Source: an uncultured bacterium (GTDB taxonomy: Bacteria > Cyanobacteriota > Vampirovibrionia > Gastranaerophilales > Gastranaerophilaceae). Taken from it: DNA of 64,000 nucleotides. Location of the stretch: contig CASEDF010000001.1 in the NCBI GenBank assembly GCA_949286705.1, positions 1 to 64,000 of the forward strand. The letters run 5' to 3'. How positions within the stretch are numbered: the first letter of the stretch is position 1; each line of letters begins with the position of its first letter. A program made the position numbers and the translations under genes. Below the pieces are notes generated by a model. It did not search any database and was not told the origin of the DNA. It saw only the letters and a program-made list of their open reading frames with translations. This document shows positions 559 through 52,828 of this stretch, in pieces.

Positions 559-690
559 ATCCCGCAACAAGTGCGGGATGATGGTTGTATATTGTCATCC
601 TGAAGTGCCAAAGGCACCCCTCTACCTCTGGGAGAGGGTAGAATTTCTTAACGAGCGTTTGCGAGTTTAGAAATTCGGGTGAGGGTTTGG
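559..690. repeat. Cluster of palindromic intergenic repeats
   Basis: The gap before dxr is filled with short palindromic units. ATCCCGCAACAAGTGCGGGAT (559-579) is a hairpin whose first half recurs near 37110. A GTCATCCTGAAGTGCC unit (about 593) resembles units at 15960 and 16016 inside a pilin gene. A larger unit (about 617-690) has a CTCTACCTCTGGGAGAGGG arm followed by an inverted pair around GAATTTCT/AGAAATTC and a GGGTGAGGG arm. The CCCTC/GAGGG style is shared with the repeats bounding the endonuclease insert in priA. Confidence 0.6.
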
Positions 691-767: not shown

Positions 768-1859
768 ATGGGAAAGAAAAGAATAAGCATAATCGGCTCA
801 ACGGGTTCAATCGGAACTCAGACTCTGGAGGTTCTTGAAAAACTTCAGGACAAATTTGAAATAATTGCACTGGCAGGCGGACATAATAAGGAGCTTTTGG
901 ACGCGCAGGCAAAAAAATTCAAACCAAAATATACAGTTCTGGGCGAACAAGGTCTTGAAAAAATCTGTTCCGATAAAGAAAACGACATAATATTAGTTGC
1001 ATGTTCAGGCAAAATCGGATTACGCCCGACACTTACCGCAATAAAAAACGGCATAAATATAGCGCTTGCAAATAAAGAAACCCTTGTTATGGCGGGCGAT
1101 ATTGTGATGAGGGAAGCGAAAAACCACGGGGTAAAAATTATTCCGGTCGACAGCGAACACTGTGCAATCCACCAGTGCATAAAAGATATTTCTCAGGTGG
1201 ATAAATTAATTATTACGGCCTCCGGCGGGCCTTTTTTACACAAATCCGTTGATGATATGAAAAACGCAACAGTCAAAGAGGCACTTGCGCACCCCAAATG
1301 GCATATGGGTAAAAAAATAACTGTTGACAGCGCGACTTTGATGAACAAAGGACTGGAAATCATTGAGGCGCATCACCTTTTCGGATTTAATTATGATGAT
1401 ATAGAAGTTGTAATTCACCCGCAAAGCATTGTGCATTCCGCAATTGAATACAAAGACGGCAGCGTAATTGCCCAATTAGGACTGCCGAGTATGCATATCC
1501 CAATTCAATATGCCATATCTTATCCTGAAAGATTTAAAGGGATAAAGTCAAAAAGTTTCAGTTTTGCGGAAATTGCGCGGCTTGACTTTGAAAAACCTGA
1601 TTTTGAAAAATTCCCGTGCGTAAAACTTGCCTACAGAGCAGGCAAAACAGGCGGAACCATGACAACATGCCTTAATGCGGCAAATGAAGAAGCTGTTTTT
1701 GCATTTCTGGACGGAAAAATCAAGCTCTATAATATCTACGAAATAGTTGAAAAAATGATGTCAGAACACAAAGTTATCCAAAACCCTACAATAGACGAAA
1801 TCTTTGAAATCGACAAAGACATCCGCGAAAAAACAAAAGAATTTATTAAAACTCTATAA
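768..1859 (+). CDS. dxr: 1-deoxy-D-xylulose 5-phosphate reductoisomerase
   Basis: Cytosolic enzyme that rearranges and reduces DXP to 2-C-methyl-D-erythritol 4-phosphate with NADPH and a divalent metal, the committed step of the MEP isoprenoid pathway. The Rossmann motif GSTGSIGTQTLEVL is at residues 10-23, the metal-site segment VDSEHCAIHQ at about 127, and MNKGLEIIEAHHLFG at about 191, followed by HPQSIVHS. At 363 residues it is slightly short but complete. It converges on priA, with 6 bp of overlap. ispE and ispF elsewhere in the window belong to the same pathway. A TATAAT-like box sits about 15 bases before the start, so the leader is very short. Confidence 0.95.
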   Translation: MGKKRISIIGSTGSIGTQTLEVLEKLQDKFEIIALAGGHNKELLDAQAKKFKPKYTVLGEQGLEKICSDKENDIILVACSGKIGLRPTLTAIKNGINIALANKETLVMAGDIVMREAKNHGVKIIPVDSEHCAIHQCIKDISQVDKLIITASGGPFLHKSVDDMKNATVKEALAHPKWHMGKKITVDSATLMNKGLEIIEAHHLFGFNYDDIEVVIHPQSIVHSAIEYKDGSVIAQLGLPSMHIPIQYAISYPERFKGIKSKSFSFAEIARLDFEKPDFEKFPCVKLAYRAGKTGGTMTTCLNAANEEAVFAFLDGKIKLYNIYEIVEKMMSEHKVIQNPTIDEIFEIDKDIREKTKEFIKTL

Positions 1860-4484
1860 AATATCCAGCGGATCCACATCTATTGTGAGCTTAATATCTT
1901 TTGGCATTGTGATTTTGTTCAGAAAACTTGAAATAAATCTGTGACCTTTTTCGTCCATTTTGTTTTTAATAAGGATTTGGAAACGATACTGCCCGTTGAG
2001 CCGCTCGATTACACAGTTTGTGGGACCCAAAACCTCAATCCGCTCTGATATTCCGTATTTTTCAACCATTGTACAAAGTCTCAAGGCAATCTCCTGTGCT
2101 GATTTTTCCGCGCGGAAGTTGTTTTCACAAGCCAGAACAAGTCTTATAATCTGGCTGAAAGGCGGGTAATCAAATTCCTCACGGGCAATAATTTCTTTTT
2201 CAAAAAATTCACCGTAATTTTGGGATTTAGCACTTTCAAGCGCATAAAATTCAGGGTTATAAGTTTGGAAAAACACACGTCCCGCAAAATCTCCGCGTCC
2301 GGCACGCCCGGCCACCTGCGTCAAAAGCTGAAATCCGCGCTCTGATGCTCTGAAATCCGGCAGATTGAAGCTTGCATCAGCCGAAATAACCCCGACAAGC
2401 GTAACATTCGGGTTATCCAAACCTTTTGCAATCATCTGCGTGCCGACCAGAATATCTATATCTCCCTTTTGAAATCGCTCCAAAAGCCTTATGTGTTCGC
2501 CTTTTCTGACAAGAATGTCGCTGTCGATACGTTCAACTTTTTTATCAGGATAAAGCTCTTTGATGTACTGTTCAATCTTCTGGGTGCCTGTTCCGCTGTT
2601 TTTCAAAGCGTCAGAACCGCATTCGGGACAAAAATCAGGAAAGCTTTCACTGTGGTTGCAATAGTGACATTTCAAACGCTGTTCACGCGCGTGCCAGATC
2701 ATCGGAATAGCGCAATTAGGGCATTCAATTACATGCCCGCATGCCTGACACTGGGTAAACGTTGAAAACCCGCGGCGATTAATCAACAAAATCACCTGCT
2801 GATTATTCTCTAAAGTTTCATTAATCGCGACCTGCAAAGGTTTGGAAATCACATTTTTGTATGCCGCGCGGCCGTATTCCTGCATATTTATGACGGTAAC
2901 CGGCGGAACTTTTGCATCATTATATCTTTTTTTAAGCTCAAAAAGATTACCGGAATTCACTGCCCTGTAGTAAACCGAAATATCGGGCGTTGCAGATCCC
3001 AATAAAAGCGGACAGTTATGAAATTCGGCAAGTTTACGCGCAACAACACGCGCATCATATCTTGGCGCAGGATTTGTTTGCTTATAGGCGCCTTCGTGCT
3101 CCTCATCAATTATAATTAAGCCGATATTTTGCAATGGCGCAAAAACAGCCGAACGCGCACCCGCAAGTATTTTAATTTCATTTTTGTATAATTTTTGCCA
3201 AACATCATAACGTTCGCCGTCAGAAATGCTGCTGTGCCATATTGCAACGTCATCAGTGCCGAATTTTTTCGCCAGACGCTTGGTTAATTGTGATGCAAGT
3301 GCAATTTCCGGAACCAGAAACAAAACATTTTTACCTGCTTTGATTGTATCGTCAATTAATTTAAAATAAACTTCCGTTTTGCCGCTTGCCGTAACACCAT
3401 GAAGTAATATTGTTTTACCCCTCACCGGAATCAAAGATTCCGACTCTCCCACAAGGGGAGAGTAATCAGTTTCTGATAAAATTTTAGAGATTACGCCTTC
3501 AATATTTTCATAAATTTCATTATTCCAAAATCTTAAAACTTTAAAACCGTTATCTTCCAAAAACTTTTGTCTTACCTTGTCGCTTTCAAGCCCTGCAATA
3601 TCATTATGCTGCCCGCCATCAATTTCAATTACAAGTTTTTTCTCATAACATACAAAGTCGACTATATATTTACCAATAGCCTCTTGCCGCCTGAATTTAA
3701 GATTATTCAATTGCTTATCTTTCAGATAATACCACAATATCCTCTCTGCATTTGTCATCTTTTGACGTAATTCCTTGGAATACGCCAAAGCTTGCCTTGT
3801 ATAAAAATGTACGGCAGTTTTCCTCTCCCCTTGTGGGAGAGGGTTAGGGTGAGGGGTAATTTTATTTTTTATCCCTTCGTAGACTTTTTGCTGATCGGGT
3901 GAAAGTTCAAACAGCGGTTCTTTTTCCGTAATTTTTAATATATCAAGCGGGTTGCGGTATAATTCTTCCGATGTAATCTTTAAACACCCGAGTTCTTCCA
4001 GTTTTTTAATGGTATTACGCGTTGTCTTTGCCTGACGTTCGAACAAAATCAAAGGCATTTTGCCGGATTTTTGCAAAATTTCCAGAACCTCTTTTTGCCT
4101 CTTTGTCGCCCCGTCAAACTGTACAAATTCAACCGCCTGTTCGGTTTTTGAAGCTTTTTCAATTAATTTCAAAGGAATTGCCGCGTTCAAAACAGTAACC
4201 AGATCACAGCAGTAGTAATTCGCAACCCATTCAAGTAATTTTAAATAATCAATAGAAAAAAGCGGCTTTTCATCAAGAATTTTGCTTATTTTTTTTACCT
4301 TAAAATCACCCGGCAGATAATCCGAAAACCCCACACAAAAAGCATTAATAAGCCCCTGACGCCCGAAAGGCACCAGAATCGCCTGACCGATTTGAATTTT
4401 GTCCTTCATCTCATCAGGGATTGAATAACTGAAAGTTTTTACCCCCAGCCCTTTTATATTCACAAGAGCAAGAGCGTATTTCAT
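1854..4484 (-). CDS. priA: Primosomal helicase PriA with an inserted DUF559/Vsr-like endonuclease domain
   Basis: 3'-5' DNA helicase that restarts collapsed forks. The N-terminal DNA-binding domain is followed by a Walker A segment, LLHGVTASGKTE (about 360-371), DEEH, the zinc-binding cysteine block (CQACGHVIECPNC, then CHYC, then CPEC) and the C-terminal helicase motifs. Residues about 209-357 are foreign to PriA: a DUF559-type domain (KELRQKMTNAERILWYYLK, then FRRQEAIGKYIVDFVC, then LVIEIDGGQH) flanked by repeat-encoded peptides (HPNPLPQGER and SPLVGESES). Removing about 149 residues gives about 727, the normal PriA length. The frame is intact throughout. The gene starts 1 base inside the upstream PC4-like gene (TAATG), so the two form an operon. 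Confidence 0.93.
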   Translation of the reverse strand: MKYALALVNIKGLGVKTFSYSIPDEMKDKIQIGQAILVPFGRQGLINAFCVGFSDYLPGDFKVKKISKILDEKPLFSIDYLKLLEWVANYYCCDLVTVLNAAIPLKLIEKASKTEQAVEFVQFDGATKRQKEVLEILQKSGKMPLILFERQAKTTRNTIKKLEELGCLKITSEELYRNPLDILKITEKEPLFELSPDQQKVYEGIKNKITPHPNPLPQGERKTAVHFYTRQALAYSKELRQKMTNAERILWYYLKDKQLNNLKFRRQEAIGKYIVDFVCYEKKLVIEIDGGQHNDIAGLESDKVRQKFLEDNGFKVLRFWNNEIYENIEGVISKILSETDYSPLVGESESLIPVRGKTILLHGVTASGKTEVYFKLIDDTIKAGKNVLFLVPEIALASQLTKRLAKKFGTDDVAIWHSSISDGERYDVWQKLYKNEIKILAGARSAVFAPLQNIGLIIIDEEHEGAYKQTNPAPRYDARVVARKLAEFHNCPLLLGSATPDISVYYRAVNSGNLFELKKRYNDAKVPPVTVINMQEYGRAAYKNVISKPLQVAINETLENNQQVILLINRRGFSTFTQCQACGHVIECPNCAIPMIWHAREQRLKCHYCNHSESFPDFCPECGSDALKNSGTGTQKIEQYIKELYPDKKVERIDSDILVRKGEHIRLLERFQKGDIDILVGTQMIAKGLDNPNVTLVGVISADASFNLPDFRASERGFQLLTQVAGRAGRGDFAGRVFFQTYNPEFYALESAKSQNYGEFFEKEIIAREEFDYPPFSQIIRLVLACENNFRAEKSAQEIALRLCTMVEKYGISERIEVLGPTNCVIERLNGQYRFQILIKNKMDEKGHRFISSFLNKITMPKDIKLTIDVDPLDIL
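3416..3865 (-). mobile_element. Repeat-bounded DUF559 endonuclease element inside priA
   Basis: The inserted endonuclease segment is bounded by perfect 19-bp inverted repeats: CTCTCCCACAAGGGGAGAG at 3444-3462 and its exact reverse complement at 3823-3841. Outside each is a further inverted ACCCCTCACC. The interior (about 3470-3820) codes for a Vsr/DUF559 fold in the same frame as priA. The domain keeps FRRQ, the IVDFVC strand and EIDGGQH, the expected PD-(D/E)XK-like core of this family. DUF559 proteins are normally free-standing, about 110-130 residues; here one sits as a domain insert. That the repeat-plus-endonuclease unit is mobile is inference. Confidence 0.7.
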
Positions 4485-15770: not shown

Positions 15771-16886
15771 ATGAACACAAATACGCACTATGACTACTTT
15801 TCACTCAGGGGGGGGGGCAGTAGCTTAACCTCCGCAGACAACTTTTTTATCTGTCATGCTGAACTCGTTTCAGCATCTTGCAATCGGGACAATGTAAAAG
15901 CCCCTCTCCGGTCACTACGTGACACCCTCTCCCCTAGGGGGCGAGGGAAATTAATCTGTCATCCTGAGGTGCCGATGGCACAACAACACATTAGGGCTTT
16001 TTGGAATTTTACTGGTCATCCTAAGGCTTTAGCCGAAGGATCGCAAAAAGTTAATGAGATGCTGAAACAAGTTCAGCATGACAGAAATACCTTCCCTCGC
16101 CCCTTGGGGAGAGGGATTAAGGGAGAGGGGCAAGGCTGTGACAAAACCGTGAGCAAAGCTCACAGAAAATTCTTAGTGCCTTACTGTCTTAGTAACTTAG
16201 TATCTTCTAAGAAAGCCGCCTTTACCTTAGCCGAGGTGCTTATCACCCTCGGCATCATCGGCATTGTTGCCGCTATGACTATTCCGACACTCATATCAAA
16301 ATTCCAGGAAAAATCTCTGGAGTCTCAATTTAAAAAAACATATTCATTGTTAAATCAAGCGCTGCAGCTTACTAATTATGAAAACGGAGTTGAATACAAA
16401 TGTTATTCCAAAACCACAGATTTTGAAAATTCCGATTATTATGAATATTCACAATGCAAAGAGTTTCAAGAAGCCTTTTTTAAAAATTTAAAGTATTTAA
16501 AATATGATGTTGTTAATGAAACGACTGTTGACTATAAAACAAAAGAAGAAGTTCTTGCAGAGGGCGGCGGGATAACAAATCCGGCTTGTTCATTCAAATA
16601 CTTAGTAGCAAATACATACAAATATTATTTACCTGACGGAAGTATTGTATATGCAAATCCTAGAAATAGTGATACTGGCGGTATCTTTATGATTGTTGAC
16701 ATAACCGGCGATAAAGGGCCTAACAAGTGGGGATATGATGTTTTTCAACTATCTCCGACTAAAAGAAAAAACGGTTCTGTGAGAATAAATGAAGCTATTT
16801 GTGCAATATGGGAAAAAGGCGGCAAAAGAACACAAAATATCCTCAATAATATTGATGAAGTAAGTGATGACTGGTTTGCAGATTAA
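15771..16886 (+). CDS. Type IV pilin-like protein with repeat-built N-terminal extension and poly-G switch (ON)
   Basis: The pilin signature KKAAFTLAEVLITLGIIGIV is at about residues 145-164, and the C-terminal VDITGDKGPNKWGYDVF motif is shared with other pilins here. The ATG at 15771 follows GGAGG; the ATG at 15756 overlaps that site. A run of 10 G (15808-15817) lies 12 codons in and keeps the frame open. With 9 G the frame would hit TAA within a few codons. Residues 20-140 are translated repeats (CHAELVSAS, MLKQVQHD, LSPRGRGK). Normal prepilin leaders are much shorter. Either the extension is real and removed, or the true start is internal. Confidence 0.75.
   Translation: MNTNTHYDYFSLRGGGSSLTSADNFFICHAELVSASCNRDNVKAPLRSLRDTLSPRGRGKLICHPEVPMAQQHIRAFWNFTGHPKALAEGSQKVNEMLKQVQHDRNTFPRPLGRGIKGEGQGCDKTVSKAHRKFLVPYCLSNLVSSKKAAFTLAEVLITLGIIGIVAAMTIPTLISKFQEKSLESQFKKTYSLLNQALQLTNYENGVEYKCYSKTTDFENSDYYEYSQCKEFQEAFFKNLKYLKYDVVNETTVDYKTKEEVLAEGGGITNPACSFKYLVANTYKYYLPDGSIVYANPRNSDTGGIFMIVDITGDKGPNKWGYDVFQLSPTKRKNGSVRINEAICAIWEKGGKRTQNILNNIDEVSDDWFAD
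15808..15817 (+). repeat. Poly-G tract (10 G), candidate phase-variation switch
   Basis: Ten consecutive G in an AT-rich genome, located 12 codons after the start of the pilin-like gene. Frame check: 10 G joins the ATG to the pilin frame; loss of one G leads to TAA after a few codons. It parallels the 9-G tract at 42232-42240. Confidence 0.75.
15845..16150. repeat. Nested palindromic repeats inside a pilin coding region
   Basis: An inverted pair CTGTCATGCTGAACTCGTTT (about 15849) and its near reverse complement (about 16058-16085) frames the block. Between and after are CCCTCTCC/GGGGAGAGGG units (15900-15950 and 16090-16130) and GTCATCCT units (15958 and 16016). The unit at 15900-15950 is the same family, in opposite orientation, as the one at 36930-36975. 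All are read through in the pilin frame. Confidence 0.7.
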
Positions 16887-36889: not shown

Positions 36890-37185
36890 AACGGGCGCAC
36901 TACGTGCCGTTGCAGTATTTTATCCCTCGCCCCCTTTGGGGAGAGGGTGTCCGAAGGACAGGAGAGGGGCTAAAATCCTGCAATCTCTTACGCGCCTATA
37001 ATCACGGCGCGGAGCCGCTACGCAGCATTAATACCGCAATAGCGGAGTGAACAATAACTGTAGCCGAAACAAACTTCATAGGCGTGTATTGTCTGAGCGG
37101 TAAATGTATTTAGATCCCGCAACAAGTGTGCGTCGCTTTTGACACCAAAAGCGACCGCCGTGCGCGCAGCACCCGCCGGAGGCTC
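36890..37185. repeat. GC-rich repeat cluster in the pcrA to response-regulator gap
   Basis: The 565-base gap holds several palindromic units: CCCTAACGGGC, the unit CCCTCGCCCCCTTTGGGGAG through GGAGAGGGGC (36930-36975, same family as 15900-15950 inverted), CGCGGAGCCGC, GATCCCGCAACAAGTG (shared with 559) and CGCTTTTGACACCAAAAGCG (37133-37152, hairpin). No gene is apparent. TTTAGTAAAATAAAAT before 37289 is the likely -10 region for the regulator gene. Confidence 0.6.
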
Positions 37186-46775: not shown

Positions 46776-46781
46776 AATACC

Positions 46782-46826
46782 CTCCCTTGAGGGGAGGGTG
46801 GAAATCTACGATTTCCGGGTGGGTGA
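46782..46826 (+). repeat. Palindromic repeat between rsmA and ispE
   Basis: CCCTCCCTTGAGGGGAGGGT, then GGAAATCTACGATTTCC, then GGGTGGGTG. Two hairpins of the CCCTCCC/GGGAGGG family immediately before the ispE start; the element abuts the DUF559-like N-terminus of ispE. Confidence 0.7.
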
Positions 46827-46828
46827 TT

Positions 46829-47764
46829 ATGAATAATAAAAAATATCCAAAAATTTCTATATCAAATGCAAAAAACTTAAGAACTAATGCAGCAACTCCT
46901 GAAAAAATATTATGGACATATCTCAGGAAAAGCAGTGAAAATAGGAATATTAAAATTCAATGTCCCGCCAAAATAAATTTGACGCTCAAAGTTACCGGAA
47001 AACGCGAGGACGGTTATCATAACATTGACAGCATAATGCAGACAATCAGCCTGTTTGATTATCTGACAATTTCAATTGAAAAAAGCGATAAAATCGAAAT
47101 AACTCTAAACGGCACAAGCGACGAAATTCCGTATAACGAAAAAAATCTTGTACATAAAGCATGCCTGTTATTTTTAGAAAAGACAAAACTTCCGGCGCAT
47201 AGGATTAGTGTTTTCATAGAAAAAAATATCCCCGTTGCAGCAGGTCTTGCAGGCGGAAGTACGGATGCTTCAGGGATGCTGTACGGATTAAACAAATTAT
47301 TTGACGAACCTTTAAGCCGTGAAGGATTACACGGGCTTTGCGCAAAACTCGGCTCAGACTTGAATTTATGCCTTGAAGGCGGCAGACAAAAAACCTCCGG
47401 CAGAGGTGAAATTTTGGAACCGCTGGAATTTGAAGAATTTGAAGTTTCGCTTATAAAGCCTGAAAATTTAGGTATAAGCGCAAAGGAAGCATACACAAAA
47501 TTTTCGGAAAAAATAGCTAACTACCCTACCCTTGCAGTGGAAGGGCCAGGGTGGGGGGCAAGAGAGGCTTACCCCAACGACCTTGAATGGGCTGTAATTG
47601 ATGATTACAAAGAATTACAAGAGATTAAAAAACTTTATCCTAAATCCGTTATGTCAGGCTCCGGCTCAACTTATTTCGCAATAGATACTGAATTTAAACC
47701 TCAAAAAGGTTTTTGGATAAAAAATAACTTGAAATCAATACCATACGGTGTAAAAGAAGTATAA
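46829..47764 (+). CDS. ispE: 4-diphosphocytidyl-2-C-methyl-D-erythritol kinase, with DUF559 relic and repeat insert
   Basis: GHMP kinase of the MEP pathway: substrate loop CPAKINLTLKVTGKREDGYH (about 44-63), ATP loop PVAAGLAGGSTDASG (about 137-151), C-terminal GSGSTYFA. Two oddities. Residues 12-36 (SNAKNLRTNAATPEKILWTY) are not part of IspE but look like the start of a DUF559 endonuclease (compare KELRQKMTNAERILWYYLK in PriA). Residues about 231-247 (YPTLAVEGPGWGAREAYP) are encoded by a GC-rich repeat (47519-47567) placed in frame in a loop before NDLE. Total 311, about 25-30 above usual. The ATG at 46829 gives this frame; no better start is seen. Confidence 0.88.
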   Translation: MNNKKYPKISISNAKNLRTNAATPEKILWTYLRKSSENRNIKIQCPAKINLTLKVTGKREDGYHNIDSIMQTISLFDYLTISIEKSDKIEITLNGTSDEIPYNEKNLVHKACLLFLEKTKLPAHRISVFIEKNIPVAAGLAGGSTDASGMLYGLNKLFDEPLSREGLHGLCAKLGSDLNLCLEGGRQKTSGRGEILEPLEFEEFEVSLIKPENLGISAKEAYTKFSEKIANYPTLAVEGPGWGAREAYPNDLEWAVIDDYKELQEIKKLYPKSVMSGSGSTYFAIDTEFKPQKGFWIKNNLKSIPYGVKEV

Positions 47765-52754: not shown

Positions 52755-52828
52755 AAACCTCGCATCATAGTGGAGAGGAAAAAATTTCGACACGAAAAAT
52801 GAGTGTCAGAAATTCCGGAGAGGGGCTG
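52755..52828 (+). repeat. Palindromic repeat between holA and holB
   Basis: CCTCGC ... GGAGAGG, AAATTTC-GACAC-gaaaaatga-GTGTC-AGAAATT, then CCGGAGAGGGG. It is a nested hairpin with the same CCTC/GAGG style as the units in priA and at 46782. The ribosome site of holB (GAGAGGGGCTG) lies at its right end. Confidence 0.6.

Follow-up and report, generated by a model that had tools for sequence, protein, structure and literature searches.

The repeat that recurs in genes and gaps of this DNA is a member of the class described in Escherichia coli as BoxC, PIT element or intrastrand-triplex motif (TM), and it probably forms the ends of an in-frame, non-splicing, homing-type mobile element that encodes a Vsr-like PD-(D/E)XK endonuclease of the DUF559 family. 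What emerges most clearly from the data is that the DUF559 unit itself spreads between species into the same site of the same host gene. The repeat class was already known; neither the link to DUF559 nor the in-frame lifestyle was found in searches of an open-licence library, which misses most subscription journals.

The stretch of 64,000 nucleotides that was analysed is referred to here as the window. As a sequence-only reading of it had claimed, a repeat unit is present at 36924-36971 (+ strand) and an inverted relative at 15899-15947 (- strand). Both are solo TM units, and their inner stems differ yet both pair, with the hairpin TGTCC-GAA-GGACA in the former and GTCAC-TAC-GTGAC in the latter. 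The 36924 unit is intergenic and lies within a longer repeat; its 111-base surroundings have 29 matches in the genome. This longer repeat (36900-37010) has inverted arms of its own (TTGCAGTATTTTA ... TAAAATCCTGCAA), which enclose the solo unit. Related forms named in the same reading do exist at 617, 3418, 3822, 16094, 46780 and 52758. However, the form at 52758 is degenerate, the copies at 3418 and 3822 belong together as the inverted ends of a single DUF559-carrying element, and the copy at 46780 is not a plain repeat, since a truncated DUF559 remnant follows it, fused in frame to ispE. Solo units are found at 16094-16130 (+), upstream of a pilin-like gene and with the short second loop ATTAA, and at 617-685 (+), with a long inner hairpin (GAATTTCT...AGAAATTC) and the third arm GGGTGAGGG. 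The degenerate solo unit at 52758-52827 (+) likewise has a long inner hairpin, and its outer arm GGAGAGGGGCT is intact. A loose core-hairpin pattern gave 21 overlapping matches at six places in the window, compared with 0.07 expected under a first-order Markov model, which excludes chance. Across the 1.85 Mb genome, a stricter core pattern matched 33 times in forward and 31 times in reverse orientation, versus 0 matches of a reversed control pattern. Rfam searches at gathering thresholds returned no family for the repeat; from the window they yielded only a tRNA.

Knowledge of triplex-forming BoxC/PIT repeats goes back to the 1990s, and an account of their origin has been lacking. Their architecture, consisting of a C-rich arm, a short loop, a G-rich arm, a second loop and a second G-rich arm, was found in the window at 3822-3857, 16094-16130 and 36924-36971. 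The E. coli BoxC, which is the same as the PIT element and TM_ECO, has the consensus CCCTCNCCCN3-6GGGNGAGGGN3GGGNGAGGG (Holder et al. 2015, PMC4666352). The window units share the same three arms with this consensus, CCCTCNCCC-loop-GGGNGAGGG-N3-GGGNGAGGG, and example 21 from E. coli departs from them mainly in the second loop. The 3-nt second loop of E. coli (TTA or CCG) is present in only 63 of 159 distinct units of our set. From the same 159 units, 59 distinct second loops are at least 9 nt long and are often hairpins: a stem of at least 5 bp is formed in 26 of the 59, compared with 12% of shuffled loops, and the stem sequences are unrelated to each other. This confirms the earlier claim that the inner hairpin varies while its pairing is kept. 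With a second loop of 13 nt, the 36924 unit is therefore a TM variant. The third arm shows a modest tendency toward the mirror rule of the purine triplex. Among 48 units with asymmetric arms, which are partly related to each other, the mirror orientation fits better in 21, the direct orientation in 10, and 17 are ties; for second loops of up to 6 nt, a hand count, again of partly related units, gave 13 mirror, 0 direct and 7 ties.

According to the E. coli study, TM_ECO forms an intrastrand triplex in vitro, and its authors saw no stable triplex in vivo (PMC4666352). The study states that neither transposase or integrase remnants nor mobility activity were found near TM sites, and its text contains neither 'endonuclease' nor 'DUF'. 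There the E. coli motif is said to occur solely between genes, to have a second loop of 3 nt and to lie near no mobility gene. In contrast, units in the order of the window are also located within coding genes, carry hairpins in the second loop and include CCCTCCCC-type variants. Also unlike the E. coli description, a DUF559 gene is found between inverted units.

The complete element of the window is inserted in frame in priA (1854-4484, - strand; 876 aa), just upstream of the P-loop LLHGVTASGKTEVY. It spans 3417-3857 (-), which is 441 nt or 147 codons, and consists of two inverted TM/BoxC-type ends and DUF559. One end (3418-3462, -) is composed of CCCCTCACC, the inner hairpin GGAATC-AAA-GATTCC and the core hairpin CTCTCCC-ACAA-GGGGAGAG. 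The other end (3822-3857, +) is a canonical TM with the core hairpin CCTCTCCCCTTGTGGGAGAGGG, the loop TTA and the third arm GGGTGAGGGG. Between them lies a DUF559 endonuclease domain (PF04480 in Pfam, COG2852; 3471-3791, -; PriA residues 232-338), which matches with 133.4 bits against a cut-off of 20.6, and both ends and the domain share one frame with priA. The window genome carries three full DUF559 genes, and hairpins of the TM kind flank each of them on both sides. In Pfam searches of the PriA insert only DUF559 and MTES_1575 matched, and no Hint or intein splicing domain was detected. An intein was therefore rejected, as no splicing domain surrounds the nuclease. Among the matches listed, PriA has a single match in the window genome and no second copy, and its dN/dS of 0.01-0.07, where computable, indicates strong conservation; the interrupted PriA therefore presumably works. 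Among the 189 genomes that match PriA, at least 13 have an insert directly before the P-loop motif, again counting the matches listed.

Modelled with a pLDDT of 88, the DUF559 domain of the window has a PD-(D/E)XK fold. Its matches are 3hrl (E 4.9e-9), the homing endonuclease I-Bth0305I (3r3p, E 9e-5) and Vsr (1vsr, E 0.029), so that the modelled DUF559 fold resembles that of a homing endonuclease. YcjD, the E. coli member of the family, has been placed near Vsr (PMC1189080), and VsrA, a DUF559 protein of Caulobacter, is reportedly required for a DNA damage response when the cells lack their cytosine methyltransferase (PMC12907096).

The surroundings of DUF559 genes were compared with a motif-free test, in which the left flank was locally aligned to the reverse complement of the right flank. 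In the host order, 63 of 75 DUF559 loci reached a flank score of at least 30, compared with 11 of 1805 control window pairs. The test was also positive for 48 of 53 loci from other bacterial groups (35 of 1764 control pairs) and for 14 of 19 gut loci in the set of named genomes (1 of 675 control pairs), several of which are the same contigs as loci in the order set. No clear inverted repeat was seen in 12 of the 75 and 5 of the 53 loci, and loci lacking a flank (2 of 77 in the order, 8 of 80 in the named genomes) had been left out before counting. By record label, the other groups are proteobacterial classes, Chloroflexi, Planctomycetota, Nitrospirae, Omnitrophota, Aminicenantes and candidate phyla; among these 53 loci, the metagenome-bin labels of L180, L145 and L157 are doubtful, and L180, labelled Acinetobacter, has the prmA insert known from the order of the window. 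At a score of at least 34, 105 of 134 DUF559 genes were recovered versus 3 of 377 neighbouring ORFs. Where each end has one clear TM orientation, the ends are inverted in 25 of 27 loci (9 out-out, 16 in-in, 2 mixed). A rule that the third arm always points outward was rejected on these counts of out-out and in-in loci. Around ycjD of E. coli K-12 (L235:6206-6419), a full TM/BoxC lies some 190 nt downstream, and the 3′ end of the gene overlaps an imperfect core; neither hairpins on its 5′ side nor perfect inverted repeats around it were found.

Insertion in frame is not a peculiarity of priA. Different genera carry the DUF559 unit at matching sites of priA, ispE, hydE, an M14 peptidase gene and prmA. 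It lies in frame inside another gene or is fused to one in 51 of 59 fetched loci, a proportion in which in-frame cases are over-represented because most of these loci were selected for long ORFs. The hosts are PriA (12, or 13 with the window), IspE near the C-terminus (9) or at the N-terminus (3), HydE (6), M14 peptidase (10), PrmA (5), a large helicase-like ORF (3), a MurD-like protein (1) and a methyltransferase (2). Identities of PriA, HydE, IspE, M14 and PrmA were confirmed on examples by Pfam or NCBIfam, and the helicase, MurD and methyltransferase names were assigned by eye. Two loci of Rickettsiales AM-377-L16 (L190 and L199, 2501-2794) carry DUF559 in frame inside ORFs of 1070 and 1394 aa; they belong to another phylum, and in-frame insertion is therefore not confined to the order of the window.

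Presence and absence of the element at a conserved host-gene site was observed for priA, hydE and ispE. In G172 and G057, which are about 2% diverged from the window genome (G000) around priA, this gene is empty. The empty allele reads AATAAA-GCTGAAGGTAAT-AAAACA, and the filled allele reads AATAAAATT, followed by the element (ACCCCTCACC ... GGTGAGGGGT) and AAAACA. At the priA site of G033, G117 and G173, short repeat remnants without DUF559 were found. The 3′ end of hydE shows the reverse of the priA pattern, with an element in G057 and G113 and none in G000. At both the priA and the hydE site, one of the junctions contains a run of G. At the N-terminus of ispE, G000 has a degenerate element, which starts with a CCCTCCC-type unit (46780-46823, +) and continues into the truncated N-terminus of DUF559; G057 and G172 are empty there. 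Further downstream in the same gene, a remnant end (AGGGTGGGGGGCAA; 47548-47561, +) marks the C-terminal site, where G057, G172, G113 and G033 have a full DUF559 element. Since empty priA and hydE alleles contain no repeat at all and filled ones contain two inverted ends, the ends and the gene travel together. This argues against a different explanation, in which small mobile nuclease genes happen to land in hairpins that serve as ordinary terminators or mark fragile sites, the TM repeats spread by other means and DUF559 only inserts into them. The instability of TM sites in E. coli (PMC4666352) and a terminator role guessed for such hairpins in an Enterobacter paper (PMC2869309) are in line with landing places, as are genomes with TM units that lack DUF559 (G151, G010). 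On the other hand, core types agree between the two ends at 78 of 109 loci, where 39 would be expected, and PIT motifs were without terminator activity according to the E. coli study (PMC4666352). We regard the use of pre-existing landing places as rather improbable.

The homing-type reading is further supported by the phylogeny of the nuclease. The 13 PriA inserts form one clade (95/89), and so do the 6 HydE inserts (94/69). Labels change 6 times for M14 and 4 times for the C-terminal IspE site, and all labels together change 16 times versus 47.9 times after shuffling, counts that treat related sequences as independent. This clustering by host-gene site and not by genome speaks for allelic homing. 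DUF559 is under purifying selection (dN/dS 0.08-0.17). Of 174 pairs at the same site, 8 (in PriA, HydE, IspE and M14) have a DUF559 whose synonymous divergence is less than 0.6 times the host gene's, and none shows the reverse; pairs with a host part shorter than 240 nt were skipped. The best pair is HydE of L078/L079, with a synonymous divergence of 0.060 for DUF559 versus 0.551 for the host (p 4e-14), followed here by PriA of L057/L060 with 0.162 versus 0.628 (p 1e-12); these Fisher p values likewise take no account of the relatedness of the sequences. High identity spans the element and ends at its edges in the pairs that show this most clearly (L044/L048, L057/L060 and L078/L079). As DUF559 is younger than its host gene in these pairs and the identity is limited to the element, it has spread horizontally into the same site. 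Long co-conversion tracts, a hallmark of homing, were looked for around the young inserts and none were seen. Faster spread than that of the host gene between species is thus found in the 8 pairs, whereas the priA inserts of G000, G113 and G191 have diverged about as much as the host gene, and inheritance there looks vertical.

To compare repeat number with gene content, 192 genomes were surveyed, of which 10 are below the mark of 90% completeness and 5% contamination. A DUF559 match was called strong at E below 1e-20, a cut of our own, and the pattern counts include symmetric hairpins twice. At least 4 core matches were present in 48 of 67 genomes with strong DUF559 versus 14 of 125 without (Fisher p 1.8e-17, odds ratio 20), and at least 10 in 37 of 67 versus 5 of 125. 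Repeat number correlates with DUF559 with a Spearman coefficient of 0.68 and a within-genus permutation p of 2e-4. The association with DUF559 proposed in the sequence-only reading is strong, and it is both physical, as inverted units flank the genes, and numerical. Repeat number follows the gene in these counts, but 12 of the 67 DUF559 genomes have no core-pattern match; where inspected, other hairpin types flank their genes. Abundant repeats in genomes without DUF559, which that reading had named as contrary evidence, do occur in part: true TM units are numerous in G151 (92 matches) and G010 (64), neither of which has a strong DUF559 match. Inspected TM loci of these two genomes (L238, L239, L242, L243, L246, L247, L251 and L252) show many canonical units.

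A gene between inverted palindromes whose number follows the gene is also the anatomy of RAYT/REP systems (REPtrons), according to the paper describing them (PMC2817692). In those systems the enclosed gene is a Y1 (HUH) transposase, and here it is DUF559. In a REPtron-like reading, DUF559 would recognise folded single-stranded ends and carry both its own gene and solo repeats to other sites. Solo copies are indeed dispersed in genes and gaps, and the ends are structured and covary. However, DUF559 copies group by host-gene site and not by genome, the DUF559 tree contains no near-copies from one genome among its rows, and solo units are not close copies of resident element ends. Such transposition to new sites seems unlikely to us. 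A further reading is that the repeats are REPs moved by a RAYT-type Y1 transposase, with the DUF559 association being secondary. Y1_Tnp is found in 61 of the 192 genomes, including that of the window, and shows a weak association with repeat number (odds ratio 3.0). In a joint model, its coefficient is 0.13 beside 2.11 for DUF559, and among DUF559-positive genomes its p is 0.93. Y1/RAYT adds nothing beyond DUF559 and was rejected as the driver of repeat number, which makes this origin of the repeats highly improbable.

If the element homes, the DUF559 nuclease would cut either the empty allele or a structure that forms there, and repair of the break from the occupied allele would spread the unit in the manner of a homing endonuclease gene. 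The element is presumably tolerated because it keeps the reading frame and falls in loops of the host protein. Its folded ends may be the substrate, or a means of clean gain and loss. Least certain is the origin of the solo TM repeats, which might be remnants, or non-autonomous or trans-mobilised copies of the ends, left in genes and gaps. DUF559 may move them in trans, as suggested earlier, but the inner hairpins and outer arms of the solo units in the window are unlike the ends of resident DUF559 elements.

With homing endonuclease genes such as that of I-Bth0305I (PDB 3r3p), the DUF559 element shares the modelled catalytic fold, conserved host sites and presence/absence alleles, and it is younger than the host gene in some pairs. 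Unlike homing genes and inteins, it has no intron or splicing domain in Pfam searches and is bounded by inverted hairpin ends; in contrast to inteins, the host protein presumably keeps the insert. From RAYT/REP it differs by its PD-(D/E)XK enzyme, which is not of the Y1/HUH type, and by recurrent in-frame insertion in core genes. Rickettsia palindromic elements are also palindromic repeats located in frame in protein genes, are unrelated in sequence to TM and the DUF559 element, and to our knowledge contain no nuclease gene. We know of no close precedent for an in-frame selfish gene without a splicing domain.

Tentatively, we propose a new class of mobile element, in which a PD-(D/E)XK nuclease with triplex-forming inverted ends homes in frame into essential genes without splicing. 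Such elements could have given rise to the BoxC, PIT and triplex repeats known from hundreds of bacterial genomes; the enzyme would then act on the folded ends and move solo repeats in trans. A widespread bacterial repeat would gain a likely source, and DUF559, formally a domain of unknown function, a likely role. The element would also exemplify a selfish gene that has no splicing domain and resides in frame within essential protein genes. Because DUF559 is located between TM repeats in many bacterial groups, the origin and spread of the repeat are directly testable.

Further DUF559 relatives were observed in other settings. In Legionella anisa (L207, 2200-3100), very long inverted arms surround DUF559, with a score of 252. 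Segments with a transposase and DUF559 were recombination hotspots in evolution experiments with L. pneumophila (PMC12308824). A weak match to a different, DUF559-like domain lies in a 1050-aa ORF of the window genome (G000:C1:251100-251264, L012), and one weak match of this kind is present in many genomes of the order. Viral contigs contain 17 DUF559 relatives.
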